Assembly: GCF_018408855.1 (NCBI RefSeq)
Contig: NZ_AP024328.1
Coordinates: forward strand, 186,001-250,000
Source of the DNA: Caballeronia sp. NK8
GTDB taxonomy: Bacteria > Pseudomonadota > Gammaproteobacteria > Burkholderiales > Burkholderiaceae
Direction of reading: 5' to 3'
Length of the DNA stretch: 64,000 bases
How positions within the stretch are numbered: position 1 is the first letter of the stretch; each line of letters begins with the position of its first letter. Positions 10,130 to 50,344 of the stretch are shown one piece after another. A program made the translations under genes and the position numbers. Below the pieces are notes generated by a model. That model had not been told where the DNA came from, did not search any database, and saw nothing but the letters and a program-made list of their open reading frames with translations.

Positions 10130-10375
10130 GGCCTGTCCGACCCCGAAGGATAGAGCGGATGTGGCGCGTCCACATCCCATGCCAGAGGTAATATGGATGC
10201 GCAGCGGCATGGGAGATCGGCGTAGGGAAATGGTGCCCTGAGCCCGTTGAACAGTTGGACCCGCAGCCCTGCGCGCAGCCCGGATTGGTACGGCGGGCAG
10301 TTATGCCCCAAGCACGCTTACCAGAATTCGATCACGAGGGCTGCTGCCGCTGCCATCACTCTGGCAGGAGGTACC
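10130..10375 (+). ncRNA. IS110 left-end non-coding region, candidate bridge RNA
   Basis: IS110-group elements carry a long non-coding stretch between the left end and the transposase start. In characterised members it is transcribed into the bridge RNA that selects target and donor DNA. The roughly 240 bp here are non-coding, contain short complementary blocks, and end at the AGGAGG site of the transposase. I cannot fix the RNA ends or loops by eye, and the transposase is dead, so any RNA would be a relic. Confidence 0.35.
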
Positions 10376-12609
10376 ATGCAAGTTCTCTATCCCCGCTGCG
10401 CCGGACTCGACGTCCACAAGGACACCAGTGTGGCTTGCGTGCGCTGCGTGTCTGCCCCACAGAATCGCGAAGTGCGCGGCTTCGCTGCCACCACAATCGG
10501 ACTGCTTGAGCCCGGCGACTGGCTTGCCTTGCATGGCTGCACGCACGTGGCCATGGAAGCGACTGGCGTCTATTGGAAACCGGTCTGGCACATCCTCGAA
10601 GGCAGCTTCAAGCTGGTCTTGGCAAATGCCCGACATATCCGCAACGTTCCTGGACGCAAGAACGACGTCAACGACGCGACGTGGATCGCCGATCTGCTCG
10701 CGCATGGTCTGATTGATCCGCTCCAGTTTCGTGCCGCCTGCTGCGACGCAGGACTTACGCGATCTCAAAGGTACGCGCAAACAACTCGTGCACGAGATCG
10801 CCCAGCACAGCCTGCGCATCCAGAAAGTGCTCGAAGACGCCAATCTTTAACTCGGCAGCGAATGAAAGGGACTTCCCCGTCCCGAGGCTGCGGCGGAAGC
10901 CGCGAATCGGCATCAACGTGCCATGATGAAGTTCTCGACCTTCATCAACACCAACAGGAGGGGAAGTCCATGCCTATTGTGACCATCGGAATCGACCTTG
11001 CCAAGAATGTTTTCGCCGTTCACGGCGTGGACGAGGTTGGCAAGGCGTTGCTGATCAAGCCACGTGTATCGCGCGATCAACTGGTAACCTTGATTGCACA
11101 ATTGCCGCCGTGCGTCATTGGCATGGAAGCATGCTCCGGGGCGCATTACTGGGCTCGTGTACTCCAACAACACGGCCATACGGCCAAGCTAATGGCGCCC
11201 AGGCTCGTGGCGCCTTATCGCATGTCGGGGAAGCGCGGCAAGAACGATGCGGCGGACGCGGCCGCCATTTGCGAGGCGGTCACCCGACCGAGCACGCGTT
11301 TCGTACCGCTGAAAGACGAGCATCAGCGGGCGACGCTTTGCCTGCATCGGACCCGGGAGGGATTCGTCGAGGAACGAACCGCTGCCTACAACCGGATGCG
11401 TGGCTTGCTCGCCGAATTCGGCGTCGTGCTACCTCGGAGCCCGGAGCGACTGCGAAGAGAGATCACGCCACATCTGGACACCCTGCCGGGTTGGGCCCGA
11501 CGCTGCATCAGCGATTTGCTTGAGCATGCCGGCAACATTGAGGATCGGCTTGACGAATACGATCGCGCAATCAGCGGAATCGCCCGTGACGACGAGCGCA
11601 GCAAGCGACTCATGAAACTGCGAGGCATCGGTCCGACCACAGCGAGCAAGCTGCTCGCGAGCCTCGGTGGAGGACATGATTTCAGGAACGGTCGCCAGGT
11701 AGCGGCTTGGCTCGGGCTCACGCCCGGTCAACACAGCAGCGGAGGCAAAGCGCGGCTGGGCAGCATCACGAAAGCGGGCGATGCCTATCTGCGCAGCCTG
11801 CTGGTCCTCGGAGCTCGCGCCGTCATCGCCAATCTCGGCGAGAAGCAGGACCGCTTAGCCGTTGGGTCCGAGGCCTAGTCGAACGCCGCGGATATTGGCG
11901 TGCGGCCGTCGCGATTGCGGCCAAGAATGCAAGGATGGCCTGGGCGTTCCTGAAATACGGAGAGGACTTCAAGCCCGAGCCGGTGGCTGCATAAGACCTG
12001 CAGTGCACCGACGGATTACCGCTCACCATCGGACGCTACTGAAGCTTCATCTGGACGTTATCGACGCCCTGCAGCACACCCTCGCTGAACTCGACGTCAC
12101 CCTCGGAAAAGCACTAGCGCCGATCCGGCAATGCGGCCGTCTGCTGAGCACGATCCCCGGCGTGAGCGACGTGACCGCCCAAGTCAGCCTCGCCGAGGTC
12201 GGCGCCGACATAACACGCTTCCCTAATGCCGCCCATTTGATCTCTTGGGCCGGCCTCTGTCCGCGCAACGATGAGAGCGCCGGCAAACGCCGCAGCACCC
12301 GCGTTCGCAAAAGCGGCACATGGCTGAAAACCGCGCTCGTTACCGCCGCATGGGCCGGTGTCCGCGTGAAAAGCACCTATCTGCACGCCCAGTTCCTGCG
12401 CATCAAAGCAAGACGCGGCCCTAAGAAAGCCATGCTCGCCGTAGCTGCTTCGATGCTTACCGCCCTAGCACATGCTCTCCGACGGCGTTGTCTATGCGGA
12501 CCTCGGCACCGATTACTACAGCCGGCTCGACACCAGCAAAACGATACAACGGATCCTCAAGCGGCTTGCCGATCCCGGCTACCATCCTCAGGCGGCTGCT
12601 TCACCATGA
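10376..12609 (+). pseudogene. IS110-family transposase, interrupted
   Basis: AGGAGGTACC precedes the ATG. The N-terminal half MQVLYPRCAGLDVHKDTSVA, MEATGVYWKPVWHIL, GRKNDVNDA is in frame to about 10720, then continues in another frame as DLRDLKGTRKQLVHEIAQHS and LRIQKVLEDANL, with a premature TAA at 10848-10850. At about 10860 an IS1111-type transposase region begins. The C-terminal half resumes near 12003 (RITAHHRTLLKLHLDVIDAL, ISWAGLCPRNDESAGKRRST) and after one more frameshift ends with YSRLDTSKTIQRILKRLA at 12607-12609. About 80-90 residues between the halves are missing, so the junctions are not a simple insertion. Confidence 0.85.
10970..11994 (+). pseudogene. IS1111-subgroup transposase nested in IS110
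   Basis: Starts MPIVTIGIDLAKNVFAVHGV behind an AGGAGGGG site. The DEDD-type domain shows IGIDLAK, GMEACSGAHYW and GKNDAADAAAICEA. The C-terminal transposase domain shows LRGIGPTTASKLLASLG, FRNGRQVAAWLGLTPGQHSS with the serine motif, and GDAYLRSLLVLGARAV. At GEKQDRL a one-base deletion (about 11860) shifts the frame; the normal tail SRWVRGLVERRGYWRAA through KYGEDFKPEPVAA ends at 11994. The right non-coding end, where IS1111 elements keep their guide RNA, is missing, because IS110 sequence resumes within about ten bases. Confidence 0.85.
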
Positions 12610-12797
12610 ACGCTTCTTACCAGAGTCGTGGCACCCCAGAAGCCGCGTCCTGGTGATTTCATTAGACAAATTCACGGAGTTTGCATCAGTAACAGCGATC
12701 GCTTCGACGTCGGCGACACTCTGATCTCGCGGCAGTTTGACTACAATGACTCAACGGGTAGTTGACGCCGCGCGGCTTGACAAACGTGGAGCTATCA
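12610..12797. other. short intergenic region
   Basis: About 190 bp including the presumed IS110 right flank. GGAG at 12788-12791 serves the next gene. No other signal is seen. Confidence 0.4.
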
Positions 12798-18773: not shown

Positions 18774-19837
18774 TTAAGCCCGCAACGCGCGTGGCCGCCT
18801 GGGCGTGCTTGTATCGCCGCGCGCGGGAATTCGGCGCGGGCCATCGGAAGCTCGGATCATCAACTCAGGCTCCCAGATTTCCTGGAGCGAATGCGGTGAC
18901 GCCCCTTCGAGCCGTTGAAGCAACATTTCCGCCATCCGCTTTCCGGCTCGATGCGTCTCGGCTGAGAAGGTGGTCAGTGCGGGTTGGACATAGCGCCCGA
19001 TCGGATGATTATCGCCGCCGATCACGCCTACGTCGTGCCCGGGGGCCCTCCCGGTCTCCGCGATCCCCGAAGCACCCCGAGTGCGATTAGATCGTGACCG
19101 CACACGATCGCGGTGGGCGGGTCGGCCAATTGCAGCAGACGGCGTGCGGCCTGGGCGCCGCCTTCTTCCGATATATCCGCCTCGATACAAAGCGATTGGT
19201 CAAACTCAATTCCAGCTGCCCGCAAGGCCTCTGAATAGCCCAATCTCTCGAGGTGGCTAAACATAAGGTACTCCGGAGCATGGACTAATGCGATTCGGCG
19301 ATGCCCCAGCGCGATGAATCTCCCGCAGCCGGTGCGCCCAACGACCTGATGATCTATGTCGACAAACGGAAACGCATCCGATGTCTCACTTCGGCCAAAA
19401 GCGACGAATGGAATGTCGCGCTCGAGCAGATACGCGATGCGTTCGTCCTGCCGACGGGTGCGTCCGAAGAGTATTGCGTCCACACGCTGCCGTTCGATAA
19501 GCCGCTTGAACAGGTCGAGTTCCGTCTCCACGCTACGCCCGGATGCAACGATCACCTGAAGACCGCTGTTTTCCATCGCGTCGTTCACACCCATCAGCAT
19601 GTCCAAGAAGAAAGGGTGAGCAAAGGATGTCTGCGGCGGCGAGACCACGAACGCGACCGTGTCGGCCGTTTGGCGGCGTAAGCGACGCGCGGCCGGGTCG
19701 GGGCAGAAGCTATAGCGCTCGGCGGCCTCCAGAACCCGCTTGCGCGTTGCCGCACTCACGTCTTCGCGGCCATTTAGCGCCTTCGAGACGGTGCTAACGG
19801 ACAGCTTTAGCTTCGCTGCGAACTCTTGGATGTTCAT
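18774..19837 (-). pseudogene. LacI-family transcriptional regulator, one frameshift
   Basis: Start at ATG 19837: MNIQEFAAKLKLSVSTVSKA is the helix-turn-helix and hinge start, with LNGREDVSAATRKRVLEAAE after it. The sugar-binding-protein-like core includes FAHPFFLDMLMGVNDAMENS, ERQRVDAILFGRTR and GHRRIALVHAPE. At about 19068 a lost base shifts the frame into a stop at 19028. The proper tail, GIAETGRAPGHDVGVIGGDN, SAETHRAGKRMAEMLLQRLE, WEPELMIRASDGP, is open in the neighbouring frame to 18774. The DNA-binding domain is intact, but the truncated product lacks the last third of the effector domain. Putative operators flank its own promoter. Confidence 0.85.
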
Positions 19838-19941
19838 ATGGGCTGCGCTCTTCCATGTCTGCTTCGTCGAGGCGTCGAAAACGATTTTTGGCATTTTACC
19901 CTTTCTGAGACCACAGCGTGCGGGTTAACGTTCTGTTTTAA

Positions 19942-20105: not shown

Positions 20106-20155
20106 AACGAAACAGTCGATGCTTGAACTTTTCGTGACCGGGTGCTAACTTGTAT

Positions 20156-20171
20156 TCGAAATCGTTTTCGA
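20156..20171. promoter_or_regulatory. LacI-family operator, site 3b
   Basis: TCGAAATCGTTTTCGA differs from the perfect palindrome at one base. It precedes the RidA-family start at 20217 by 45 bp and probably controls the RidA-MFS-flavin reductase genes. The intergenic space between the LacI gene and this gene is shared by both divergent units. Confidence 0.7.
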
Positions 20172-20216
20172 CAAACGATGGCGGCGCGGCAAATCCATGC
20201 CGAACATGTTTATTCC

Positions 20217-20621
20217 ATGGTGAACACCTTGATCGAATATATCGTCACACCCAACGCACCTCTGCCGCGCGGACACTACGCTCAGGCTACCAAGGCCAAT
20301 GGTCTTGTCTTCGTGTCCGGACAGTTGCCACTCAAGAATCAGGACGGCGTTGCTTTACCTGAAGGACTCGACGCACAGGTTCATCAGGCGTTGTCCAACA
20401 TGCGCGAGGTTCTGCTTGCGGCAGGAAGCGATGTGGACAAACTGCTGAGCGTACAGATCTATGTGTCCGATATCGAAAACTGGCCGCGGGTGAACGAACT
20501 CTATCGCGCCTTCATCGGCGAAAACGCACCCGCTCGCACAGTCGTGCCGTGCGGCTATTTGCACTATGGCGCGCAAATCGAAATTAGCGCCATCGCCCTT
20601 TCTGGCGCGCCGATTCAATAA
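20217..20621 (+). CDS. RidA-family protein
   Basis: Starting at ATG 20217 (MVNTLIEYIVTPNAPLPRGH), downstream of the operator, it gives 134 residues, the usual size. YAQATKANGLVFVSGQLPL, VHQALSNMREVLLAAGS, VDKLLSVQIYVSDIENWPRV and ENAPARTVVP (with the conserved Arg of deaminating members), then IEISAIA, are family landmarks. RidA proteins hydrolyse reactive enamine/imine intermediates or act in specialised catabolic operons. As first gene of the regulon it suggests a nitrogen-containing or carbonyl substrate. RBS is weak. Confidence 0.85.
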   Translation: MVNTLIEYIVTPNAPLPRGHYAQATKANGLVFVSGQLPLKNQDGVALPEGLDAQVHQALSNMREVLLAAGSDVDKLLSVQIYVSDIENWPRVNELYRAFIGENAPARTVVPCGYLHYGAQIEISAIALSGAPIQ

Positions 20622-20686
20622 GAAAAACGCTGGCGCGACAAGAGCGCATGGAACACACATCCACGGAGTTCAGTGAGGAGAGAATC

Positions 20687-21991
20687 ATGCAGGCGCTTAA
20701 CTGGTACAAGGAAGCGGCTCCGGCCGAGCGGCGTACGTTTTGGGGATGCTTTTGCGGCTGGACACTGGACAGCTTTGACAATCAGGTGCTGTCGTTTTTG
20801 TTGCCCGCGCTTATGGCAGCGTGGCACTTCTCGAAAACCGAAGCGGGGCTTATCGCCACCTCATCTTTGCTCGCAGCCGCCGTTGGTGGATGGATCTCGG
20901 GCATCCTGAGCGATCGTCACGGTCGCGTGCGGGTGTTGACGGGCTCGATTATCTGGTTCACAGCGTTCAGCGTCGCTGCAGGATTCACAACTTCATATCA
21001 CCAGTTACTCATCGTGCGTGCACTGCAGGGGCTGGGGTTCGGTGCGGAATGGGCCGTCGGTGCCGCCTTGATGGCGGAGGTCATTAACCCGATCCACCGA
21101 GGTAAGGCACTTGGGCTCGTGCAGAGCGGCTTCTCTGTCGGCTGGGCACTCGCTGCTGTCATCACGGGGTTGCTGCTCGCATATCTTCCTGCTTCGATCG
21201 CATGGCGTTCGGCGTTTTGGGTCGGTGTTGTGCCGGCGCTCGTTGTGCTGCTGATCCGCCGATACATACCCGAGCCCGAAGTGTTCCGCGAGATGAAGAA
21301 GGCTACGGGCGGTGCCGTTGTGGCAACGTGGCGTTCGTCTTTTCGCCGAGATGTGCGACGGTGGAGTCTGCTCGCAGCGCTGCTCGTCACTGGACTCCAG
21401 GCCAGCAGTTACGCGATCATGATCTGGCTTCCGACGATGCTCATTCAGGTCCGGCACTTGCCGGTGTCGAGTGTTGCAATGATGGCGACGATGATGAGCG
21501 TCGGCTCGTTCATCGGCCAGGTCGGTTTCGCTTACCTCAACGACTCATTCGGCCGCCGCTTCACCGCAATCGCCTTTTGCATCTTTTCCGCGTCGATCAC
21601 AGCCTGCTACCTCTTCGTCCCGATGGATCCGTGGATGCTCGCGCTGCTGGGCTTTCCGGTGGGCATGGGCATCAACGGTGCCTTTGCCGGAATCGGGCCG
21701 ATGCTCTCGGAACTGTTCCCCACGGAGATCCGCACCACCTGCATGGGATTTTCTTACAACGTCGGCAAGTCGGTCGGCGCCATGAGCGTCGCTTTGGTCG
21801 GAGCCGTTGCCGAGCGCATGGGCATGGTTGGATCGATCGCGCTTTTTAGCTTCGTTGGCTACTTCTGCGCGCTGCTTGCGTTGACGTTCCTGCCCGAAAC
21901 ACGCGGGCGGGACCTTTCCAACGTCGTCGCTGACAACGAATCCTTGGAACAAGCAGACTTGCTCGAGCAGGTCAGCGCCACGCGCAGATGA
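20687..21991 (+). CDS. MFS transporter, aromatic-acid/H+ symporter type
   Basis: ATG 20687 is preceded by AGGAGAG. The 434 residues form about twelve membrane spans. Between TM2 and TM3 the MFS signature GILSDRHGRVRVLTG is present; LQGLGFGAEWAVGAALMAE and SGFSVGWALAAV mark TM4-5; the second half repeats the theme with FAYLNDSFGRRFTAIAF. FFDSFD-like N-terminal sequence TLDSFDNQVLSFLLPAL matches carboxylate/aromatic acid symporters. It probably imports the substrate of the catabolic genes behind it, as a proton symporter in the inner membrane. It follows RidA by 65 bp. No frameshift. Confidence 0.87.
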   Translation: MQALNWYKEAAPAERRTFWGCFCGWTLDSFDNQVLSFLLPALMAAWHFSKTEAGLIATSSLLAAAVGGWISGILSDRHGRVRVLTGSIIWFTAFSVAAGFTTSYHQLLIVRALQGLGFGAEWAVGAALMAEVINPIHRGKALGLVQSGFSVGWALAAVITGLLLAYLPASIAWRSAFWVGVVPALVVLLIRRYIPEPEVFREMKKATGGAVVATWRSSFRRDVRRWSLLAALLVTGLQASSYAIMIWLPTMLIQVRHLPVSSVAMMATMMSVGSFIGQVGFAYLNDSFGRRFTAIAFCIFSASITACYLFVPMDPWMLALLGFPVGMGINGAFAGIGPMLSELFPTEIRTTCMGFSYNVGKSVGAMSVALVGAVAERMGMVGSIALFSFVGYFCALLALTFLPETRGRDLSNVVADNESLEQADLLEQVSATRR

Positions 21992-22030
21992 ACGTCTGAC
22001 CCAATAGACGTCGGAAACATGGAGACACGT

Positions 22031-22654
22031 ATGAGCAGTGAATCGGGGGTCGAATTTTACGATCCCGCCGAGGGGCATGGCCTGCCGCATGACCCCTTCA
22101 AGGCGATTGTCGCGCCTCGCCTGATCGGCTGGGTGTCGACGCGTTCGCCGCAGGGACAGCCGAACCTTGCGCCGTACAGTTTCTTCGGTGCATTTGCGAG
22201 TTCGCCGCCCATCATCGGCTTCGCGAGCGAAGGGCGGAAAGACAGTTTGCGCAATATCGAGGCAACGCGTGAATTCGTGTGGAACCTCGCGACCCGGCCA
22301 CTTGCGGAGCAGATGAACCTGACCTCCGCCACCGTTGGGCCGGAAATCGATGAATTCCAGCTGACGGGGCTCACGCCTGCGGAGGGTCGGAATGTGTCGG
22401 TGCCGCGGGTAGGTGAATCGCCAGCGGCGCTTGAGTGCCGATTGTTGCAGGTTATACACCTTCTTGATCTGCACGGGAGCCCGACCGACAGCTGGCTTGT
22501 ACTTGGTCAGGTCGTGGGCGTGCACATTCAGAAGGCTTATCTGAAAGACGGTTTGTTCGATACGCGTGCCGCGCAGCCGATTATGCGGGCTGGCTATCGA
22601 GCGGACTACGCGCAGATCGGCGAGATGTTCGAGATGTATCGGCCGGTAATATGA
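22031..22654 (+). CDS. flavin reductase-like (FMN-binding split barrel) protein
   Basis: 207 residues from ATG 22031, with GGAG six bases upstream. DPFKAIVAPRLIGWVSTRSP, NLAPYSFFGAFASSPPIIGF and EFVWNLATRPLAEQMNLTSA are typical of PF01613 proteins that bind FMN. DESQ-like insertions and the C-terminal dimerisation sequence GYRADYAQIGEMFEM are also usual. Some relatives supply reduced flavin to a monooxygenase; none is encoded nearby, so it may itself be the oxidoreductase. It sits between the permease and the acyl-CoA dehydrogenase, and operator site 4 lies just downstream. Confidence 0.82.
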   Translation: MSSESGVEFYDPAEGHGLPHDPFKAIVAPRLIGWVSTRSPQGQPNLAPYSFFGAFASSPPIIGFASEGRKDSLRNIEATREFVWNLATRPLAEQMNLTSATVGPEIDEFQLTGLTPAEGRNVSVPRVGESPAALECRLLQVIHLLDLHGSPTDSWLVLGQVVGVHIQKAYLKDGLFDTRAAQPIMRAGYRADYAQIGEMFEMYRPVI

Positions 22655-22689
22655 GCGATTCCTACAAGTTCGAGAACATGCGCCTTGGA

Positions 22690-22705
22690 ACGAAAACGAT
22701 TTCGA
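22690..22705. promoter_or_regulatory. LacI-family operator, site 4
   Basis: ACGAAAACGATTTCGA is the inverse form of site 3b with one end change. It lies 13 bp before the acyl-CoA dehydrogenase start, where bound repressor would block transcription or initiation of the second half of the cluster. Confidence 0.65.
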
Positions 22706-22718
22706 CAGTGAGATTGAA

Positions 22719-23879
22719 ATGACTCAAATCGACAACGAAGTATCGATGATCCGCGAAACTGCCCGCCGCTTCGTGCGCAACCGGCTTGTTCCGCTTGAAC
22801 AGCAAATTGAGACGGACGATGACGTAAGTCACGAGTTGCTTGCCCAACTGCGATCCGAAGTCGCGGCCCTCGGCCTGTACGGGTTTAACCTTCCAGAGAG
22901 TATCGGTGGCCCCGGGCTATCGGCTGCAGCAAAAGTGGCCATTCTCGAGGAGCTCACATACACGTCTGTCCCGTTGAGCGAGGTGTTCGGCCATCTGCCG
23001 CTTCAACTGTCTCAGGCGAACGACCGTCAACGCGCCGAGCTGTTGCCCGAGATCCTCGCCGGCCGAAAGATTGTCACGTATGCGCTGACGGAGCCTAACG
23101 CCGGCTCAGATCTCGGTGGCCTGCGCACGCGTGCAGAACGGGCGTCGGGCGGATGGGTACTCAACGGAAGCAAACATTTCATTTCTCACGCGGAGACGGC
23201 CGACTACATCATCGTGCTTGCCGTAACCGATGCAGGCGCATCCCTCAAGGGTAAGCTCAGTACTTTCATCGTCCGCAAGGGAAATCCGGGTGTAGTCGGC
23301 ATGACGCGCTACCGCAAGATGGGATGGCGAGGCTACCACCTCAATGGTTTCACGCTCGAAAACTGCTTCGTTCCCGAGGAGGACTTGCTGGGCGAGGTCA
23401 ATGCGGGCTTCCTCGGCATGATGCAGTCGATCAACCAGGATCGCTTATTGTCGGCGAGCCGTTCGCTTGGTCTTTCGGCACGGGCCCAGACGATGGCCTG
23501 TGAGTATGCGCAAGAGCGCAAGGCATTCGGCGCGCAGCTTTCCCAACATCAGGCAATCCAGTTCATGGTTGCTGATAACGATGTGGAAATCGAAGCGGCA
23601 CGCATGCTGATTGGCGCGGCGGCGCAGATGATCGAAGACGCCGATCCGCGCGCACATGTCGCTGCATGCCGCGCGAAGCTTTATGCGAGCGAGATGGGTT
23701 GCCGCGTGACCGATCGCGTGCTCCAGATCTTTGGCGGCATGGGTTACATGACAGAACTGCCTATTGAACGTTTTTACCGCGACGCGCGTGCATTCCGCAT
23801 TGGTGAAGGTACGTCAGAGATGCAACGCATCCAGATTGCGCGTGCTGCCTTCGCATCGGGAGGTCATCATGGCCTTTGA
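22719..23879 (+). CDS. acyl-CoA dehydrogenase
   Basis: 386 residues, full length and intact. It has an N-terminal helical domain (MIRETARRFVRNRLVPLEQQ), the FAD-binding beta domain with ALTEPNAGSDLGGLRTRAE and WVLNGSKHFISHA, and the C-terminal domain with QERKAFGAQLSQHQAIQFM, DRVLQIFGGMGYMTELPIER and FRIGEGTSEMQRIQIAR. The residue at the Glu376-like position is the Glu of IGEGTSE. It oxidises an acyl-CoA to the 2-enoyl-CoA and passes electrons to ETF, whose two subunit genes follow. It overlaps the CoA ligase start by 11 bp, so the genes are co-translated. Confidence 0.92.
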   Translation: MTQIDNEVSMIRETARRFVRNRLVPLEQQIETDDDVSHELLAQLRSEVAALGLYGFNLPESIGGPGLSAAAKVAILEELTYTSVPLSEVFGHLPLQLSQANDRQRAELLPEILAGRKIVTYALTEPNAGSDLGGLRTRAERASGGWVLNGSKHFISHAETADYIIVLAVTDAGASLKGKLSTFIVRKGNPGVVGMTRYRKMGWRGYHLNGFTLENCFVPEEDLLGEVNAGFLGMMQSINQDRLLSASRSLGLSARAQTMACEYAQERKAFGAQLSQHQAIQFMVADNDVEIEAARMLIGAAAQMIEDADPRAHVAACRAKLYASEMGCRVTDRVLQIFGGMGYMTELPIERFYRDARAFRIGEGTSEMQRIQIARAAFASGGHHGL

Positions 23880-25401
23880 CCTGCTCGACGCGGGAAACCT
23901 CGAACTGCCCGCTCTGCATCACGGAGTGCATAGTTATACGCGCGGCGATCTGGGACTTGCGGGGCGGCGTGCCGCGTCATTTCTTCATGAACTCGGTGTA
24001 AGACGAGGCGACACCTTCGCGGTGTGGCTTCCCGATGGCGCTGTATGGATGCAACTCTTCTTCGGCGCAGCTCAACTTGGCGCTCTGATGGTGCCAGTGA
24101 GCACCCGCTTCCGAAAGCAGGAAGCGCTGCATGTCGTGAAAACATCGAAGGCGCGTGTTCTCTTCGTGCCAAAGCGTTTTCTCGATTTTGACTACGCCGG
24201 CTCGGCGCGCGAGATCGACGCTTCGTGCGAGGCGTTGAGCCATGTCGTCGAAATCGAACGATTCGACGGTCTCGCATGGAGCGAGCGCGAACCTTACCCA
24301 CATTGGGACGGGCGTGATACCGATCTTCTCTGCACTTTTATGACCTCGGGCACGACGGGGCAACCGAAGCTCGCGGCACACACGGCGGGCGGAATTGCTC
24401 GTCATGCGCGCAATGTCGGTTCTTACAACGATATGCGAACGAACGACGTAGTGCTCTGCGCGCTGCCTCTTTATGGCGTGCTTGGTTTCGTGCAGGCTAT
24501 CGCGGCCCTCGCATCGGGCGCTGCGTGCGTGTTACTGCCCGTGTTTAAAGCGGACGCTGCAGCGGCGGCTATCGAACGGCATCGCGTCACGCATTTCTTC
24601 GGTTCGGACGCCATGTTCGACATGGTGCTCAACGCTGGAGACTACTCCCTTGCTACCTGGCGCCGCGGCGCATTCCCGGAATATGCAGGCCTTGGTCGCA
24701 GTGTCATCGCCAAGGCGTGGGACGCTTGGGGGGTTCGACTGACAGGTTTGTACGGCATGTCCGAATGTTTCGCGATGGCGGCGATGCGCGACCCGCAAGG
24801 CGACGCGGGAGCAGCGGGGGACGCCCGGAGGCAGACCGATCTCGCCCGAGATCGCCTTCCGAATTGCCGACCCGGAGAGCGGAGAGACGCTTGCAGACCG
24901 TCAACAGGGCGAACTGCAACTGCGCGGCTACAACATTATGGCAGGTTACCTCAACAATCCCGCTGCAACGGCGGCAACCTTCACCGCGGACGGCTGGTTC
25001 AAGACGGGCGATTTAGCCTACGCCGATGGTGGCTCTTTCCGCTATGTCGGCCGCATTAGGGACAGTCTGCGCCTGCGAGGCTACCTGGTTGATCCGTCGA
25101 AATCGAGTCCTTCCTCACGCAGCATTCCGGCGTAGAGGCGGCCCAGGTCGTCGGCGTACACGTCGAAGGAGAAGGGGACGTCGCGGTCGCATTCATTCGC
25201 GCGTCCACGACACCCGAAACTGAGGAGGCGTTGCTTGCCTGGTGCAAGCAAGGCATCGCCGGTTTCAAGGTGCCTCGCCGCATCATCGCAGTTGAGGCGT
25301 TTCCGCAAAAGGAAGGTCCTAACGGCGTCAAAATCCTGAGAAACGAGTTGCGTGAAATGGCCGGACGTTGTCTCGGTATTGCGCAGCCGGCATCGGTATG
25401 A
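23869..25401 (+). pseudogene. AMP-forming acyl-CoA synthetase, two frameshifts
   Basis: Begins MAFDLLDAGNLELPALHHGV within the end of the dehydrogenase gene. The adenylation domain shows the P-loop TFMTSGTTGQPKLAAHT and TGLYGMSECFAMA. Near 24815 the frame shifts; LQLRGYNIMAGYLNNPAATA, DGWFKTGDLAYADGG and YVGRIRDSLRLRGYLVDP follow in a second frame. Near 25099 a lost G shifts again; QHSGVEAAQVVGVHVEGEGD and GFKVPRRIIAVEAFP, then the Lys-containing C-terminal loop, follow to TGA 25399-25401. Intact, it would make about 510 residues and activate the pathway carboxylic acid with CoA and ATP. Confidence 0.87.
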
Positions 25402-25418
25402 CATGGGAGATTCGACAA

Positions 25419-26213
25419 ATGAAGCAAGCTGACATTCGCTCCGACATTGCGTGGGCGACACCAAAGAAGGTAGTTATTCACGGTCTCGATTTGTGCGACG
25501 ACATTGTTGGGAAGATTGACTTTGGCCAAATGGCGTTCTTGCAATTATTCGCGCGCCTGCCGCAGGAGCGTGAGCTACGCATGTTCAACGCGATGATGGT
25601 CATTCTTGTCGAGCATGGCATCACGCCTTCGTCACTCGCCACTCGCATGACGTATGCGGGCGCGCCGGAAGCCGTTCAGGCGGCCGTGGCTGCAGGTTTG
25701 CTTGGTCTCGGCTCGGTTTTCGTGGGTTCGCTTGATAACGCTGCCCGACTATTGCAAGAGTCGATTCCCAACCCGGAGAATGCGCCCGACATCGATGCAC
25801 TCGCCCGCCTGATTGTCGAGAGCTACCGTGAACGCAAGGAGATTTTGCCGGGAATCGGGCATCCGTTTCACAAGCCGATTGACCCGCGCGCGCCGGCGCT
25901 CTTCAAAGTCGCTAAAGAGACCGGCTACGATGGCCCCTACATCCGCCTCATGACTGCGATCGGCACAGAGGCGGAACACAAGCTTGCTCGCGCGCTGCCG
26001 GTGAATGTCACGGGCGCGATGGCGGCGGTGGCGTCTGAAATGGGCATTCCGTGGCGCATCTGCCGTGGGTTGGCCGTTGCAGCTCGCGCGGTTGGCTTGG
26101 TCGGTCACGTACTTGAAGAGATGCGGCAGCCATTCGCGACCGCCCTATACCTTCGTACGGAGCACGAAGCGAGCGCACATCTGATCCCAACGCAAGACCG
26201 AGAACAATCGTGA
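25419..26213 (+). CDS. citryl-CoA-lyase-like (citrate synthase superfamily)
   Basis: 264 residues; the ATG at 25419 has GGAG eight bases upstream, while ATG 25398 overlaps the ligase stop and is an alternative. The sequence has small-citrate-synthase landmarks: VVIHGLDLCDDIVGKIDFGQ, FNAMMVILVEHGITPSSLAT, LLGLGSVFVG, LPGIGHPFHKPIDPRA (the GxGH catalytic His) and PVNVTGAMAAVASEMGIPWR. Such stand-alone proteins lack part of the large domain and are annotated as citryl-CoA lyases; they cleave a 3-hydroxy-3-carboxyacyl-CoA to acetyl-CoA and an oxo acid. This is the most distinctive enzyme of the cluster and is intact. Confidence 0.83.
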   Translation: MKQADIRSDIAWATPKKVVIHGLDLCDDIVGKIDFGQMAFLQLFARLPQERELRMFNAMMVILVEHGITPSSLATRMTYAGAPEAVQAAVAAGLLGLGSVFVGSLDNAARLLQESIPNPENAPDIDALARLIVESYRERKEILPGIGHPFHKPIDPRAPALFKVAKETGYDGPYIRLMTAIGTEAEHKLARALPVNVTGAMAAVASEMGIPWRICRGLAVAARAVGLVGHVLEEMRQPFATALYLRTEHEASAHLIPTQDREQS

Positions 26214-26647
26214 GTGCGCCGCTGCCAAACGCCTTTCGCTTCTGGACCGAAGAGAAGCTAAGGAATGCGGATACCGACCAATTCCGGCATGTCAACAATG
26301 CGGTGATCGCAACGTTCTTCGAAGCGGCGCGGATGGAGATCTTCTCACCGCCGCAGATTCGTTCACTGATGGATGGCGCGAATCTCGCAGTTGTCAGACT
26401 ACTAATCGAATTTCGCACGGAGTTGCATTTTCCCGGCCACGTTGGCGTCGGAAGCGCGGTCATCGAAGTGGGAAATACATCGTTCAGAGTGCGGCAGAGC
26501 ATGTTCGATGACCATGACGAGACGCTTTGCGCTACGGCGGAAGCGGTTTGTGTCCTTGTACACGGTGAGACCGGACGTCCGCATCCGATTGCACCCGAAC
26601 TTCGGGCATATCTTTCCAAGGACGCCGAGAAGGAGACTTACTCATGA
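26210..26647 (+). CDS. hotdog-fold acyl-CoA thioesterase
   Basis: 145 residues, GTG start in the GTGA overlapping the upstream stop. FRHVNNAVIATFFEAARMEI is the central hotdog helix with the Asp/Asn motif (DTDQFRHVNN) of 4-hydroxybenzoyl-CoA thioesterase relatives. IEFRTELHFPGHVGVGSAVI and VRQSMFDDHDETLCATAEAV form the sheet. It probably releases CoA from an intermediate or clears dead-end esters. It overlaps the next gene start at 26644. No frameshift. Confidence 0.82.
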   Translation: MSAPLPNAFRFWTEEKLRNADTDQFRHVNNAVIATFFEAARMEIFSPPQIRSLMDGANLAVVRLLIEFRTELHFPGHVGVGSAVIEVGNTSFRVRQSMFDDHDETLCATAEAVCVLVHGETGRPHPIAPELRAYLSKDAEKETYS

Positions 26648-27452
26648 CGACAGGCACGGTTATGTATGAGCGGCTCGGAGATATCGCGCTCGTGACGCTG
26701 AATGATCCGAGCCGCCGCAATGCGCTGTCCCGCGAGATCGTCCGTGGCGTGTCAGCCGCTTTGGACCGGGCGCTGGAGGACGGCGCTCGCGCGGTCGCTA
26801 TCGCCGCAAACGGGCCCGCGTTTTGTGCCGGCGCAAACATCGACGATCTCCGTTCTGGATGGATGGAAAGTCCGCCGCCCGACGAAGATCCCGCACTGAT
26901 GTTTAAGCGCATTGCAGAGTTCGAGCGACCGGTCATTGCGGCGGGTTCACGGCCCGGCAATAGGGGGTGGCATGGAACTCACCCTCGCCTGCGATCTGGT
27001 TGTCGCAAGCACCACCGCATGGCTGTCGATGCCTGAATTGGGGCACGGTGTCATTCCGAACACTGGCGTCGCGCTGTTGTCCGCGGATCGTCGGATTGCG
27101 CCGCGCATTTGATCTCATCCTGACGCGCAGACGTGTTCCGATCGAGGAAGCGCTGGAACTCGGCCTGGTGAACTGCGTGGTTTCTTCCGAGGAACTGAGC
27201 GACAGCGTTCTGTCTTTGGCGCATCAGGTGGTTGACACTGTGCCGCCCGGCGCGTTGAGAGCGGCCAAGCTCAACCTTTGCGCACACGCGGGGATAGATT
27301 GGGAGCGCGTCGTGAGCTCGCCACGAGATGTGCCGAAAGAAGAGTGGCAGGAAGGGCTCGATGCCTTCACTCAGAAGCGGAACCCCAACTACGCACGCTT
27401 TTGGAGCTTGAGGTGCAACGCTGTGCTATGCATTGAAGGGAGATCAAAGTGA
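26644..27452 (+). pseudogene. enoyl-CoA hydratase/isomerase, two frameshifts
   Basis: MTTGTVMYERLGDIALVTLN, DPSRRNALSREIV and AIAANGPAFCAGANIDDLRS give the crotonase N-terminal half. An extra G near 26944 shifts the frame; AVHGPAIGGGMELTLACDLV, with the oxyanion-hole Gly-Gly-Gly, and WLSMPELGHGVIPNTG follow. A lost base near 27092 shifts again to VGLRRAFDLILTRRRVPIEE, ALELGLVNCVV and EGLDAFTQKRNPNYARFW. The reading continues to 27452, overlapping etfB, although the original stop was probably earlier. Intact, it would hydrate the enoyl-CoA made by the acyl-CoA dehydrogenase. Confidence 0.87.
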
Positions 27453-28200
27453 AAGTACTCGTATCGGTCAAGCGTTCGGTGGATCCCAACGTGAAGGTGA
27501 GCGTCAAACGTGACAACACCGGCGTCGATATTTCGAACGTCAAAATGTCGATGAATCCGTTCGACGAAATAGCAGTGGAAGAAGCGGTACGCTTGAAGGA
27601 AGCGGGCGTCGCGACGGAAGTGGTCGCGGTGTCAGCAGGCAACGCGCAATCTCAAGGAAACGCTGCGCACTGCTCTGGCCATTGGCGCGGATCGCGCGAT
27701 CCTAATCGAATCAACCGGGGAGTTGCAGCCTCTCGCTGTGGCAAAGCTCCTCAAGGCGATCATCGACAAAGAGCAGCCTTCTCTCGTCTTGCTAGGCAAG
27801 CAGGCGATCGACGACGACTCGAATCAAACGGGTCAGATGCTTGCTGCGCTGGCGCGCTTTCCCCAGGCGACTTTCGCATCGAAGGTCACCATTGCGGACG
27901 GGAAGGCCACAGTTGAACGCGAACTGGACGGTGGCGGCAGAAACGCTGTCGCTCAGGCTTCCCGCAGTGGTGACGACCGATTTGCGTCTGAACGAGCCGC
28001 GCTACGTCACGCTACCGAACATCATGAAGGCCAAAAAGAAGCCACTCGAAATCATCTCATCCGGATCGCTCGGGGTCGATGTTTCCCCGCGTCTGGAGAC
28101 ACTGAAGGTCACCGAGCCACCGAAGCGCGCCGCTGGCGTGAAGGTCGCTAACGCGAAGGAACTGGTCGCAAAACTGACATCCGAAGCTAAAGTGCTTTGA
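27449..28200 (+). pseudogene. etfB: electron transfer flavoprotein beta subunit, two frameshifts
   Basis: Opens [20 protein letters not shown] and [20 protein letters not shown], the conserved EtfB start. At about 27648 the frame slips to [54 protein letters not shown] (the AMP-binding loop), and at about 27925-27950 to [35 protein letters not shown] and the normal C-terminus [13 protein letters not shown] at 28200. Intact length would be near 249 residues. It would accept electrons from the acyl-CoA dehydrogenase. Confidence 0.9.
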
Positions 28201-28224
28201 CGCTCGAATGGGCGGAGAACGAAC

Positions 28225-29184
28225 ATGACGATTCTTGTTATCGCTGAACACGACAACCAAACGCTTAATGCGTCGACGTTAAACACCATCCGGCGCCGCG
28301 GCCGTGATCGCGACTTTTACCAATCATCCGATTCATGTGCTCGTCGCAGGACACGGTGCAAAAGCCGGTCGCAGAAGAGGCCGCGAAAGTGGCGGGGGTC
28401 GAAAAGGTGCTTCTCGCCGATGCTCCTCGGCTTGCTGAAGGCCTTGCGGAGCCTGTCGAAGCCACGCTCGTGGATCTTGGCAAAGACTATTCGCACATCT
28501 TGGCGCCTGCGACTGCCTATGGGGAAAAACATTGCGCCGCGCGTTGCAGCCCGGCTGGATGTCGCTCAAATCAGTGAGGTCATATCTGTTACTGATGTCG
28601 ACACGTTTGAGCGGCCAATCTATGCGGGAAATGCCATCGCGTTGGTTCGGTCTCGCGATCCGATCAAGGTGCTGACGGTTCGTGCAACCGCTTTTGATCC
28701 CGCGGCATGTGAGGGCGTTGGTGCTTCGATTGAAGGGATTCGCGCAGCCGATGATGAGGGCCTGTCGCAATTCGTGAGCCGGGAGGTGACAAAGCTGGAC
28801 CGGCCTGAACTGACATCGGCGAACGTGATCGTGTCCGGTGGACGCGGCCTGGGCAGCGGCGAGAGCTACCGGGCCGTGCTGGAGCCTCTGGCTGATCGGC
28901 TTGGCGCGGCGATGGGCGCGTCACGAGCGGCAGTCGACGCTGGGTTCGTACCCAACGACTATCAGGTCGGCCAGACGGGAAAGATCGTTGCGCCGCAGTT
29001 GTATATTGCGGTCGGCATATCCGGTGCGATCCAACATCTCGCAGGCATGAAGGACTCGAAAGTGATCGTGGCGATCAACCGAGACGAAGAGGCGCCCATC
29101 TTTAGCGTTGCGGACTATGGCCTTGTTGGTGACCTCTTTGAGTGCGTTCCTGCGCTGCTCGACGAGTTGGATGCGCCGCGATGA
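28225..29184 (+). pseudogene. etfA: electron transfer flavoprotein alpha subunit, frameshifted N-terminal half
   Basis: [20 protein letters not shown] is the EtfA start. Between about 28270 and 28545 the native sequence is in other frames ([37 protein letters not shown]). The rest is back in the first frame: [95 protein letters not shown], the FAD domain. One indel and its compensation therefore replace about 90 residues. An out-of-frame product would be stable only by chance; treat as non-functional unless sequence error. Confidence 0.88.
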
Positions 29185-29462
29185 ACGCGCAACTTCCGAT
29201 CCGCGCAGAATCCGGCCTGAGGCCTATCCACAACTCTCGCTTACAGGGCAGGGCGATCGCTAATGCGGAAGATGCGGAGTTGTGGCGATGGTTTTCCCTG
29301 TTGGTGCATGACTCACGCATTCGATGGATACACGCGCACGAAGGCTGGCTTGTATCCATCGACCATCGGCACGTAGCTACTGAGTCGTCCTTCGACGAAG
29401 CAATGCGCTCGGCGATGTTGCGCTTTAAGGAGCGGTCCGGACACCAACAAACAAAGTTTTGA
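29181..29462 (+). CDS. hypothetical protein, 93 residues
   Basis: ATG lies in the ATGA overlapping the etfA stop, so it is probably translated with it. It reads [61 protein letters not shown] small soluble alpha/beta protein with three Trp in the centre. I do not recognise a family. Position inside the cluster suggests an accessory role but nothing shows which. Confidence 0.5.
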
Positions 29463-29520
29463 TTTCGGCTCTTTCGAGTCGATGCTTTCCGTTCAAAGAA
29501 CGAACAACTTATAGCTAACG

Positions 29521-30901
29521 ATGACTTTTCAAACGATCAACCCGGGCAACCGGGAAACTTGTGAAGGAATTCCCTCTTCAATCTGATGATCAGGTCTTTG
29601 CGGCCTTGGATGCTGCCCACAGGCGCTATCATGAAGACTGGAAGCAGCGTCCTGTGGCGGAACGTGCTCGCATCGTCGCTCGCGCTGCGAAGATTCTCCG
29701 TGAGAAGCGAGATGAGTACGCTACGCTGCCTACCCTCGAAATGGGGAAGGTTACCCGTTTCAGTTATCTCGAAGTCGATCTCGTAGCTGACATCCTCGAC
29801 TATTACGCGCAAAACGGCGAAGCGTTCCTGAAGGCACAGCCGGTCCCTGGGGAGCCCGACGCGACAATCCTGGCCGAACCCATTGGTGTTGGTTCTCGCC
29901 ATTGAGCCATGGAACTTTCCGTACTATCAACTGGCTCGTGTCGCGGCGCCCCAACTGATCGCAGGCAATGTCGTCCTGATGAAGCACGCCGAGAACGTCC
30001 CGCAATGCGCGCTCGCTTTTGCGCGCTTATTCGAGGAGGCCGGCGCGCCAGAAGGCGTGTACACCAATCTATTCTGCAGCATCGATCAAGTCGCGAAGCT
30101 AGTAGACGACTTCCGCGTGCGCGGCCGTCGCGCTGACGGGAAGCGAGCGAGCGGGCGCGTCCGTGGGCGAGCGTTGCGGGGCGAAGTCTCAGAAGGTGAT
30201 ACTTGAACTGGGTGGAAGTGATCCTGCGCTTATCCTCGAAGGCGCCCCGCTGGATCATGCCGTCGAGCAAGTTGTGATGGGGCGCACGTTCAACTCGGGG
30301 GCAAGGATGCGTGAACATCAAGCGCGTCATCGGTGGTCGGGAAGGACCGTGGGCTTCTATGCTCGCGATGTTGAAAGAGAAATTTGCGGCGATCAAAGTC
30401 GGCGATCCGACGGACGAGTCTACGGTGCTCGGGCCGCTCGTCAGTGAACGCGCGCTTCAAGGCCTGCTGACACAGATCGATGAGGCCAGAGCCGCGGGCG
30501 CCCGCATCGTGCATGGAGGTAAGCGGGTGGAGCGTGATGGCTTTTATCTTGAGCCTACGATCATCACGGATATCGCAGAGGCCAACCCGCTGTTTCAACA
30601 GGAAGCGTTCGGTCCGGTATTGTCCTTTTATATCGTCGATAGCGAGCAGGAAGCTATCCGGTTGGCCAATGCGACAAAGTACGGACCTGGGCGGGTATGT
30701 CTTCGATGCAGACGTCGGCCACGCGAAGGATGTTGCAAGGCAGATCGAATCTGGCATGGTCTACATCAATTCCTGCTTCGCCGATTCGCCGAAACTGCCC
30801 TTCGGCGGCATCAAGAACTCCGGGTTCGGCGTGAACTGTCCGAGCTAGGTATGGGTGAATTTCTTAATAGAAAACTTATTCGCGTGTCAGGCGCCGCATA
30901 A
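29521..30901 (+). pseudogene. NAD(P)-dependent aldehyde dehydrogenase, several frameshifts
   Basis: MTFQTINPGNRET begins at 29521, then the frame slips to KEFPLQSDDQVFAALDAAHR and ERARIVARAAKILREKRDEY. A further slip near 29890 leads to VLAIEPWNFPYYQLARVAAP. Others near 30125 and 30300 separate the ELGGSDPALIL segment from the catalytic Cys, which survives as QGCVNIKRVI. IVHGGKRVERDGFYLEPTII, FQQEAFGPVLSF and, after another slip, MVYINSCFADSPKLPFGGIK finish the enzyme. Closest in style to succinate-semialdehyde dehydrogenases. At least five indels make it clearly dead. It would have oxidised an aldehyde product of the pathway. Confidence 0.87.
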
Positions 30902-30921
30902 GGCACCAGGGGAGAACTCTC

Positions 30922-31328
30922 ATGCATACGAGAAAAGGGGCTGTCTGTGCGGTGCGGTGCGCTACGTCTTGAAGGGGGAGCCGCAGGCGACCGCAATCTG
31001 TCACTGCACTCACTGCCAGAAGCAGAGCGGGAGCTTGTTTTCGTACAACTTGTTCGTTCAGGAAAGCGATTACGAGCAGCAAGGCGACACGGTGTTCTTT
31101 GAAGATCAAGGCGACAGCGGACAGCCTTCGTATCGGCACTTCTGCGGACAATGCGGGTCGCCAATTCTCACCAAGGTCGCGCTGATGCCAGGGGTCGTGT
31201 TAGTGAAGGCTGGTACGTTAGATAGCCTTGAAAGAATTCTGCCTCCAGGGACGGAAATATACACTGATCGTGCGGCAGAATGGCTTTCGTCTTTTAAGGG
31301 CGCGAAACGATTCCCGCGAAGTCCGTAG
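30922..31328 (+). CDS. GFA-family (CENP-V/Gfa) zinc protein, start region doubtful
   Basis: RGCLCGAVRYVLKGEPQATA, ICHCTHCQKQSGSLFSYNLF and HFCGQCGSPILTKVALMPGV show the Cys pattern that binds zinc in glutathione-dependent formaldehyde-activating-like proteins; about 130 residues is the family size. The ATG at 30922, after a GGGGAG site, is out of frame with the rest by one base near 30930. The alternative is a GTG at 30855 inside the aldehyde dehydrogenase tail. The body from 30935 on is intact. Its function in this family is mostly unknown; some bind glutathione adducts. Confidence 0.75.
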
Positions 31329-36244: not shown

Positions 36245-37306
36245 TCATTCCGAGTCGGCGCGCCGCGCCTCGGCCCAAGCGAGCTGCGCGACGCGTACGA
36301 ACCGGTCGCCCATCGCCCGCGCGTCATGACTAACAGCCGTGCCCCGTACGACACGCGCCCGAATGCCATGCAGAATCGCGGCGAATCGGAACATGTTGAA
36401 TACAATGTAATAGTCGAAGCCGACGAGTTGTTCACGTCCCGTGCGACGGCAATAAGTGCTGACGTAATTTGCCTCGTCCGGCAAGGCGAGCCGTGCGAGA
36501 TCGAGACCGCCGAGGCCTCCGAGAATGTCCGGCGGCAAACGGTACATCATTGCGTTGTAGGCGAAGTCGGCCAAGGGGTCGCCGAGCGTGGACAGTTCCC
36601 AGTCGAGCACGGCGATCACGCGCGGCTCGGCCGGATGAAAGATCAGATTGTCGACGCGGAAATCGCCATGTGTGAGCGCAGCTTCGTCGCGCTCCGGCAG
36701 GTTCGATTTCAGCCAATCGATCACGTTGTCCATGTCCGAATTGCGGCCGGCTGCGTCGTCGCTCAGATATTGATTCGACCAGCGCTCGACCTGTCTTGCG
36801 ACATAACGCCCCGGCCTGCCGAAATCGCCGAGACCCAGCGCGGCATAATCGAGTTGATGCAGATCAGCGAGAGTGGCATTCATCGCATCGAGATAGCGAA
36901 ACCGGTCGGCCGCCGACAGCGACGCGAAGCTCGAATCCCAGAAGATTCGACCCTTCACCAGTTCCATCACGAAGAAGCCGCTCCCTAGCACGGCAGCATC
37001 GTCGCAGGTGCCGAATATCTTGGGCACCGGAAAACCGGCCGAACCGACGGCGGACATCACGCGTGCCTCCCGCTCGACGGCGTGCGCGCCTTTAAGTAGT
37101 TGACCAGGCGGTTTGCGGCGCAGCACGTAGTCCTGCAAGGGCGTATGCAGCCGGTAAGTGGGATTCGACTGCCCGCCCTTGAACTGCTCGACTTCGAGCG
37201 GGCCGGAAAACCCTTCGATGTTGTCACGCAATCCATTCGAAAAGGGCCTGCTGATCGAAGCGATGGGCTTCGCGGACGGGAACTGTGCCCGAGAACTTGT
37301 CGGCAT
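36245..37306 (-). CDS. phosphotransferase-family (aminoglycoside-kinase-like) protein
   Basis: 353 residues from ATG 37306, which overlaps the TGA of the upstream acyl-CoA dehydrogenase as TGATG. FKGGQSNPTYRLHTPLQDYV and LRRKPPGQLLKGAHAVEREA form the ATP-binding lobe. ALTHGDFRVDNLIFHP and VIAVLDWELSTLGDPLADFA hold the catalytic Asp-Asn and metal Asp. This is the family found beside acyl-CoA dehydrogenases (as fused in ACAD10/11), where it phosphorylates 4-hydroxyacyl-CoA for dehydration. Context with the broken dehydrogenase and SDR supports a role in hydroxy-fatty-acid catabolism. Intact. Confidence 0.85.
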   Translation of the reverse strand: MPTSSRAQFPSAKPIASISRPFSNGLRDNIEGFSGPLEVEQFKGGQSNPTYRLHTPLQDYVLRRKPPGQLLKGAHAVEREARVMSAVGSAGFPVPKIFGTCDDAAVLGSGFFVMELVKGRIFWDSSFASLSAADRFRYLDAMNATLADLHQLDYAALGLGDFGRPGRYVARQVERWSNQYLSDDAAGRNSDMDNVIDWLKSNLPERDEAALTHGDFRVDNLIFHPAEPRVIAVLDWELSTLGDPLADFAYNAMMYRLPPDILGGLGGLDLARLALPDEANYVSTYCRRTGREQLVGFDYYIVFNMFRFAAILHGIRARVVRGTAVSHDARAMGDRFVRVAQLAWAEARRADSE

Positions 37307-38495
37307 CAGACACGATAGCTCCCTCCGAGTGCGGCACGCTTTATCTTTTTCGCCAGCGACCATTTATGCACCTCAGTCGGGCCGTCATAGATGCGAAACG
37401 CCCGCACCTCGCGGAAAAATTGTTCCACGATCGAATCGCGCGACACACCGGATCCGCCCATGGTCTGCACGCAACGGTCGGCGACCCTGAAGAGTGCGTC
37501 CGAGACGGCGACCTTAGCCATCGAGCTTTCGGTCGTACCGAGATCGCCGCGGTCGAGCACGTCGGCGCACCAGTCGATCATCAGTGCTGCCTGCTGCAGG
37601 TCGATTGCGTTGTCGGCCAGCATGAGCCGACGCCCTCATGGTCGATCAGCCGCTTCCCGAATGCGTGCCGCTGGCTAGCATAGTCGACGGCGAGTTCCTG
37701 AGCCCGTACCGCCAGACCGAGCCAGCGCATACAATGCGAGAGCCGCGCGGGCGAAAGGCGTATCTGAGCATATTCGAATCCTGCGTGCACTTCGCCCAGC
37801 ACCGAGTCCGCCGGTACCCGCAAGCGCGAATGGCGATCCGCGCGTGGCCGCCGGGCATAGATCCGTCGATGGTATCGAGCACCTTCACGACCTCGATAGC
37901 CGGATCTGGAAGGTCGACAAGAAACATGGTGGCGCGAGGCTTGTCGCCATCTTTCGTCAGGGCCATGACGATGCCCACCGCCGCACCCACCGCGCCGGTG
38001 ATGAAGGTCTTGCTTCCATCGATGACCCATGCATCGCCATCGCGGCGCGCAGTGGTCTTGAGCATCGATGGATCGGAGCCTGCGCCCTGCTCCTCGGCCG
38101 GCTCGGTCATGAAGAAGGCAGAGCGCGCCTCGCCGGTCTGCAACTTTGTCAGAAAGCGCTCTTTCTGTGCGGTGGTAGCGACCTGCCCAGCAGGAACATG
38201 TTGCCCTCGTCAGGCGCCATCGTATTCACTGCGACGGGACCCAACGGCGACAGGCCTGAAACGTTTCAACACGGCCGCTGTTTCGACGTGCGTCAAATGT
38301 GTGCCATCGTAAGGATGTGGGGTGTCATCACCCCTGCGCCCGCGCGAGCGTGCGCAATTCAGTGACCAGTTCTTCCGAGGGGCCGTGAGGGCCGTTGCGG
38401 CTGTCGCACTCGAAGGGAATGACGGTTTCACGAACGAATGCTTCGACACGGTCCGCAATGTCGCGGCTGCGGTCGGTGGGAGAAGGTGTCAGCAT
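37306..38495 (-). pseudogene. acyl-CoA dehydrogenase, several frameshifts
   Basis: From ATG 38495: MLTPSPTDRSRDIADRVEAF, VRETVIPFECDSRNGPHGPS, stopping near 38333 at ARAQG. In further frames come MTPHILR, QTGEARSAFFMTEPAEEQGA, WVIDGSKTFITGAVGAAVGI (FAD domain), VLGEVHAGFEYAQIRLSPAR, YASQRHAFGKRLIDHEGV, then intact to the end: NAIDLQQAALMIDWCADVLD, MGGSGVSRDSIVEQFFREVR, IYDGPTEVHKWSLAKKI. At least four indels. A 390-residue enzyme of the ACAD10/11-associated type when whole. Transcribed just after the SDR gene and coupled to the phosphotransferase. Confidence 0.87.
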
Positions 38496-48281: not shown

Positions 48282-48289
48282 GTTCTCCC

Positions 48290-48823: not shown

Positions 48824-48853
48824 GAAAAACTCCCAGTTAAACAGTCTCGGCTC

Positions 48854-50323: not shown

Positions 50324-50344
50324 TCTACCTCCGATCAGTTTCAC

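Follow-up and report, generated by a model that had tools for sequence, protein, structure and literature searches.

Gene content of the operon

The window, the whole 64,000-nucleotide stretch of Caballeronia sp. NK8 analyzed here (contig NZ_AP024328.1, hereafter C7, positions 186001-250000, in a 9.2 Mb assembly of 7 contigs), carries a candidate catabolic operon built around a stand-alone lyase of the citrate synthase fold. The original prediction had listed its genes as running from a RidA protein and an acid permease to an aldehyde dehydrogenase and a GFA protein, and Pfam and NCBIfam profile matches, by which we assigned the gene families, confirm these genes in that order over about 20142-31328. 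Four of them, all on the plus strand, form a core that recurs in 22 loci (see below; the per-gene counts given here are tblastn matches in those 22 core loci): an acyl-CoA dehydrogenase (ACAD; 22719..23879), an AMP-forming CoA ligase (AMP-binding; 23764..25401; 22/22), the 264-aa lyase itself (Citrate_synt; 25419..26213), with Thr in place of the catalytic Asp, and an enoyl-CoA hydratase (ECH; 26644..27411). In the window, the ligase frame breaks at about 24807 and 25093. Its true start is probably near 23870, and it is a 545-aa open reading frame (ORF) in a second copy of this DNA on contig C5. The hydratase, with three indels in the window, is likewise whole in C5, and for both genes the end coordinate was mapped by hand from the C5 alignment.

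The same strand also carries a RidA family protein (20142..20621; PF01042, 103 bits; 17/22) whose true start is probably further in, a major facilitator superfamily (MFS) transporter (20648..21991; 11/22) whose best NCBIfam match, aromatic acid/H+ symport, scores 217 bits and thus lies under the cut-off of 419, a flavin-reductase-like protein (22019..22654; PF01613, Flavin_Reduct, 77 bits; 14/22) and a 4HBT thioesterase (26210..26647; 20/22). Downstream of the hydratase follow the beta subunit of an electron transfer flavoprotein (ETF; 27449..28200; broken in the window, whole in C5; 10/22), the alpha subunit (28225..29184; 9/22), an aldehyde dehydrogenase (ALDH) resembling succinate-semialdehyde dehydrogenase (29521..30901; both ends mapped by hand from the C5 alignment; 3/22) and a GFA family protein (30922..31328; a single indel close to the start of the window copy; 3/22). 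Between ETF alpha and ALDH we found a small conserved ORF (29142..29462, plus strand), aligned in five sequences and also present in loci L013, L014, L015 and L016; it matches neither Pfam at 1e-5 nor NCBIfam at 1e-15. Upstream, a divergent LacI-type regulator occupies 18774..19894 on the minus strand (its frame disrupted in the window but intact in C5; 19/22), and its relative on a Paraburkholderia plasmid carries a LacI family annotation.

Active-site residues of the lyase and its partners

The lyase scores 332.9 bits against a cut-off of 193 on the NCBIfam model NF004868 'citryl-CoA lyase' (PRK06224.1-5), and it has the citryl-CoA lyase fold in the short, stand-alone form. Its positions H66, H148, R157 and R223, which we take to bind citrate or oxaloacetate with roles as in citrate synthase, are invariant in all 70 rows of its clade in an 86-row tree, which comprises the window, 50 rows from L092-L171 and 35 of the loci described below (80 in all) and omits near-duplicates and rows below 36 bits. 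At the catalytic Asp position of the N-V-D-G motif, however, Thr stands in 81 of 81 aligned rows, and none of the 70 clade rows has Asp, with Thr, Ser, Asn or Val there instead. With the catalytic Asp replaced, the name 'citryl-CoA lyase' is unproven for this protein. The His of A-H-G-G in citrate synthase and in the citryl-CoA lyase structure 6hxp is Phe in 80 of the 81 rows and Tyr in the other; we dropped this loss alone as a sign of new chemistry since the ATP-citrate lyase of Chlorobium has the same Phe. Scoring on the tree gave three changes, an overstatement in that L109 and L120 were scored as 'lost' through alignment gaps: by motif, L109 has both His and Asp, and L120 has Glu at the Asp place with its His stretch misaligned.

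Among the partner enzymes, the residues scored, which we presume to be the catalytic ones, are conserved: the Glu of GEGTSE in the acyl-CoA dehydrogenase, both Glu of the hydratase and the ligase Lys are retained in 22 of 22 core loci, the Asp/Asp/His/Asn set of the thioesterase in 20 of 20 loci, and the active-site Arg of RidA in 16 of 17, with the remaining one not scored. The nearest solved structures are 4-coumarate-CoA ligases for the ligase (179 bits), and a putative NAD-dependent aldehyde dehydrogenase and succinate-semialdehyde dehydrogenases for the ALDH.

Conservation of the core

The original prediction proposed a search for intact syntenic clusters in other Burkholderiaceae. Scanning named genomes for the lyase, we kept 80 of 125 relatives, and in 22 of these 80 loci (L012-L033; lyase identity of at least 65%) the acyl-CoA dehydrogenase, CoA ligase, lyase and hydratase genes occur together, although the contigs of L012, L023, L026 and L030 stop close to the lyase. 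None of the remaining 58 loci has the full dehydrogenase, ligase and hydratase set near the lyase, so the co-occurrence of the four genes exceeds chance. The core loci span seven named genera plus some metagenome-assembled genomes; part of the gene set is on the opposite strand in L019, and the gene order differs in L033. The core also occurs, together with ETF, ALDH and GFA genes, in two plasmid records, one from Paraburkholderia largidicola and one from Variovorax paradoxus.

The ETF, ALDH, GFA, RidA, transporter and flavin reductase genes are accessories to this core. The original prediction had listed them with the rest of the cluster; ALDH and GFA, for instance, accompany the core in only three of the 22 loci and the two plasmid records. 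Among named organisms, the lyase has its closest relatives in Caballeronia and Paraburkholderia. The operon as a whole is accessory within its genus, since only 10 of 58 genus genomes have a match at E <= 1e-50 (six of them with at least 79% identity, including the genome of the window). NF004868 is matched above its cut-off in 43 of 200 genomes of the family.

Neighborhoods of lyase relatives

Several relatives of the lyase have CoA transferase genes beside them, and some have carboxylate transporter genes nearby. We found a lyase match in 76 plasmid records and examined the gene neighborhoods in six, of which three have a CoA transferase adjoining the lyase. The row around the clade member on plasmid pBB2 of C. 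necator N-1 reads MFS, lyase, CaiB, LeuC, LeuD, regulator and TctC, and on Rhodococcus and Sulfitobacter faviae plasmids a CoA transferase immediately precedes or follows the lyase. Among six further stretches with clade members, the lyase is adjoined by a CoA transferase in four (L181, L182, L184 and L186), with TctC also in L184, and L187, a relative retaining His and Asp, has the order CaiB, lyase, TctA. Within 6 kb of the lyase, the 58 non-core loci have TctC in 28, SDR in 28, CaiB in 20 and MaoC in 14, all undercounts because the mechanical choice of ORFs sometimes took the antisense strand. The same choice applies to the core loci, where CaiB was found within 6 kb in 0 of 22 and farther away in L013 and L025.

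These CoA transferase, LeuCD and tricarboxylate transporter neighbors support hydroxy-carboxyl-CoA substrates for the clade; for some of its members, a 3-oxoacyl-CoA substrate would be compatible with the frequent SDR neighbor as well. Substrates appear to vary across the clade, because the lyase on a Sulfitobacter alexandrii plasmid (L178) is clustered with biotin carboxylase, HMG-CoA lyase, acyl-CoA dehydrogenases and MaoC, a set that presumably resembles those for isoprenoid acid breakdown. On a plasmid of Rhodococcus rhodochrous BX2 (L191), a CoA transferase-lyase pair lies near an aromatic ring-hydroxylating dioxygenase gene.

A candidate pathway and its alternatives

The gene families, their order and conservation, the lyase fold, the replaced Asp and the retained catalytic residues of the ligase, acyl-CoA dehydrogenase and hydratase can be read from the sequence; from there, we infer which reactions take place and in what sequence, what class of substrate they act on and how the operon is regulated. 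We consider that there is about an even chance that the operon serves the catabolism of an organic acid, which would undergo CoA ligation, oxidation, hydration and then cleavage by the lyase. The acid would be taken up by the MFS transporter in the window operon (or, in Bradyrhizobium, by a branched-chain-type ABC transporter) and activated by the AMP-forming ligase. The acyl-CoA dehydrogenase would then oxidize the acyl-CoA, passing electrons to ETF, and the crotonase-type hydratase would form a 3-hydroxyacyl-CoA. A retro-aldol cut by the lyase could yield acetyl-CoA together with a carbonyl compound such as a 2-oxo acid, while the thioesterase may free CoA from dead-end esters.

Activation, oxidation, hydration and cleavage were also the steps of the original prediction, and they gain from the conserved module and the intact catalytic residues while remaining predicted reactions. 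The core genes include neither a 3-hydroxyacyl-CoA dehydrogenase nor a thiolase (the rest of the genome was not searched), and the lyase is therefore the likeliest, and within the core the sole, candidate for cutting the C-C bond. The substrate type originally proposed, a 3-hydroxy-3-carboxyacyl-CoA, or another tertiary alcohol would explain a core free of these two enzymes: a tertiary 3-hydroxyacyl-CoA is not oxidizable, so such a lyase would be needed, and a 2-substituted succinate would be expected to yield one. That substrate type agrees with the CoA transferases beside the lyase relatives, some of them near LeuCD or a tricarboxylate transporter, although a branched dicarboxylate in particular is conjectural given a ligase nearest to 4-coumarate-CoA ligases.

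Several observations weigh against this pathway. By alignment, the lyase lacks the catalytic Asp found in citrate synthases and citryl-CoA lyases. We assume that D1026 and D541 of ATP-citrate lyase are this same Asp; PDB titles list the variants D1026A and D541A in substrate or citryl-CoA complexes. L183 and L185 have no CoA transferase beside the lyase, and outside the core there is a thiolase-family ORF near L029 as well as SDR ORFs in L017, L026 and L033. RidA (17/22), the flavin reductase (14/22) and an ACMSD-like amidohydrolase (5/22) have no role in the scheme, and the first two make the strongest case for another substrate. Finally, the likeness to 4-coumarate-CoA ligases speaks more for an aromatic than for a dicarboxylic acid.

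This last point would be accounted for by a phenylpropanoid-type side-chain operon, in which the ligase, acyl-CoA dehydrogenase and hydratase lead to a 3-hydroxy-3-arylpropionyl-CoA, the lyase splits this into acetyl-CoA and an aryl aldehyde, and the ALDH oxidizes the aldehyde. We take the hca/cou operons of this type to have a CoA ligase, acyl-CoA dehydrogenase, crotonase, ALDH and MFS transporter like the window operon, but know of no citrate-synthase-fold protein in them. In keeping with an aromatic substrate, the ligase is closest to 4-coumarate and feruloyl-CoA ligases, the aromatic acid/H+ symport model is the best match of the MFS transporter (though below cut-off), and ALDH and GFA occur as a pair in L013, L017 and L018 and in L177 and L179. 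However, L013, L017 and L018 are the only core loci with the ALDH, which among named proteins is closest to succinate-semialdehyde dehydrogenases, and the carboxylate-binding arginine positions of the lyase are retained in 70 of 70 rows, all of which makes such an operon unlikely.

It is also rather improbable that the Asp-less protein functions as a thioesterase, an isomerase or a binding protein, with the C-C bond cut by enzymes encoded elsewhere. The replacement of Asp by four different residues across the clade would suit a lost lyase activity, as would Ala at this position in the Rhodococcus relative L191, which lies outside the tree. Against this, the Chlorobium ATP-citrate lyase indicates that the change of His to Phe alone spares lyase chemistry, the substrate-binding positions are invariant, and the CoA transferase pairing occurs in annotated stretches where no other C-C lyase is named. 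We give little credence to a nitrogen-containing substrate, from which the acyl-CoA dehydrogenase would make an enamine or imine and RidA a 3-oxoacyl-CoA for hydrolytic cleavage by the citrate-synthase-fold protein, because although RidA with its Arg is frequent, an amidohydrolase nearest to ACMSD occurs in at least 5 of 22 core loci (undercounted through the ORF choice) and L022 has an ornithine-cyclodeaminase-family gene, the hydratase with both catalytic Glu would be without a role and 5 of the 22 fetched stretches have no RidA match.

Two copies of the locus

The copy of the window DNA on contig C5 (window 1-64000 against C5:251957-340000) differs from C7 by 197 gap openings and 12 mismatches across the 88 kb compared, a span within which the ends of the shared DNA were not reached. 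Over the operon stretch (C5:268001-305000) the two are identical save for indels and one mismatch. Single-base indels disrupt six frames in the window (the LacI gene, CoA ligase, ECH, ETF beta, ALDH and, near its start only, GFA), all six of which are intact in C5, and ETF alpha has three indels in the window that leave its frame restored, the C5 version being whole. Because the C5 genes are whole and because single-base indels with hardly any substitutions are the pattern of uncorrected long reads, the frame breaks look like sequence errors, or base-calling noise in a redundant contig C7, rather than decay. We accordingly dropped the idea of a decaying cluster, since the C5 copy is intact; there is a small chance that the C7 region itself is a genuine decaying duplicate.

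Elsewhere in the window, two adjacent IS110-family transposase ORFs (10247-12656) lie upstream of the operon, and an ORF at 6851-8092 (plus strand) has an HNH endonuclease domain and DUF7662. On the minus strand, we found an APH phosphotransferase-family ORF (PF01636, 178 bits) at 36245-37363 and, at 46911-50344, a biotin carboxylase as well as a pyruvate/oxaloacetate carboxylase-like ORF.

Comparison with known systems

With the citryl-CoA lyase of Hydrogenobacter thermophilus (PDB 6hxp) and the corresponding module of ATP-citrate lyase, the window lyase shares the fold, length, GH motif, the N before the catalytic position and conserved Arg and His, and with the Chlorobium ATP-citrate lyase also the Phe at the His position. 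It differs from citryl-CoA lyase in having Thr for the Asp of NVDG and in its setting, an oxidative CoA operon that lacks a gene for citryl-CoA synthetase.

The itaconate/methylsuccinate cluster of Cupriavidus and Pseudomonas, as described in the main text of PMC12290011, shares the logic proposed for the window operon: the substrate is activated, dehydrogenated as its acyl-CoA, hydrated and finally split into acetyl-CoA and a 2-oxo acid. It comprises a CoA transferase, an MmgE/PrpD isomerase and an (S)-citramalyl-CoA lyase, and that main text has no mention of citryl-CoA (PMC12290011). The window operon has an AMP-forming ligase in place of the CoA transferase, and the best of three matches to the Ich hydratase equivalog (NF038241) in its genome, on another contig, reaches 72.5 bits against a cut-off of 340. 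We rejected this pathway as the identity of the operon because the gene content differs, and likewise the auxin iad locus, for which the searched text of PMC12633357 and PMC10374108 includes no citrate-synthase-like lyase. Consistent with the original suggestion of a possibly undescribed gene set, our literature searches, with subscription papers mostly outside their reach, found no published pathway with this set.

Implications

We tentatively entertain, at somewhat less than an even chance, that a widespread family of citrate-synthase-fold lyases cleaves varied 3-hydroxyacyl-CoA esters without the supposedly essential Asp, here replacing the dehydrogenase/thiolase pair of beta-oxidation for a substrate without a described route of breakdown. 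The operon is a candidate catabolic route in soil and plant-associated bacteria, one not met in the published literature searched. Public annotation mostly names clade members citryl-CoA lyase, a label that can mislead because the same name denotes an enzyme listed among the key ones of the reverse TCA cycle in PMC2864759. The residue check makes that name unsafe for the 70-row clade as a whole.

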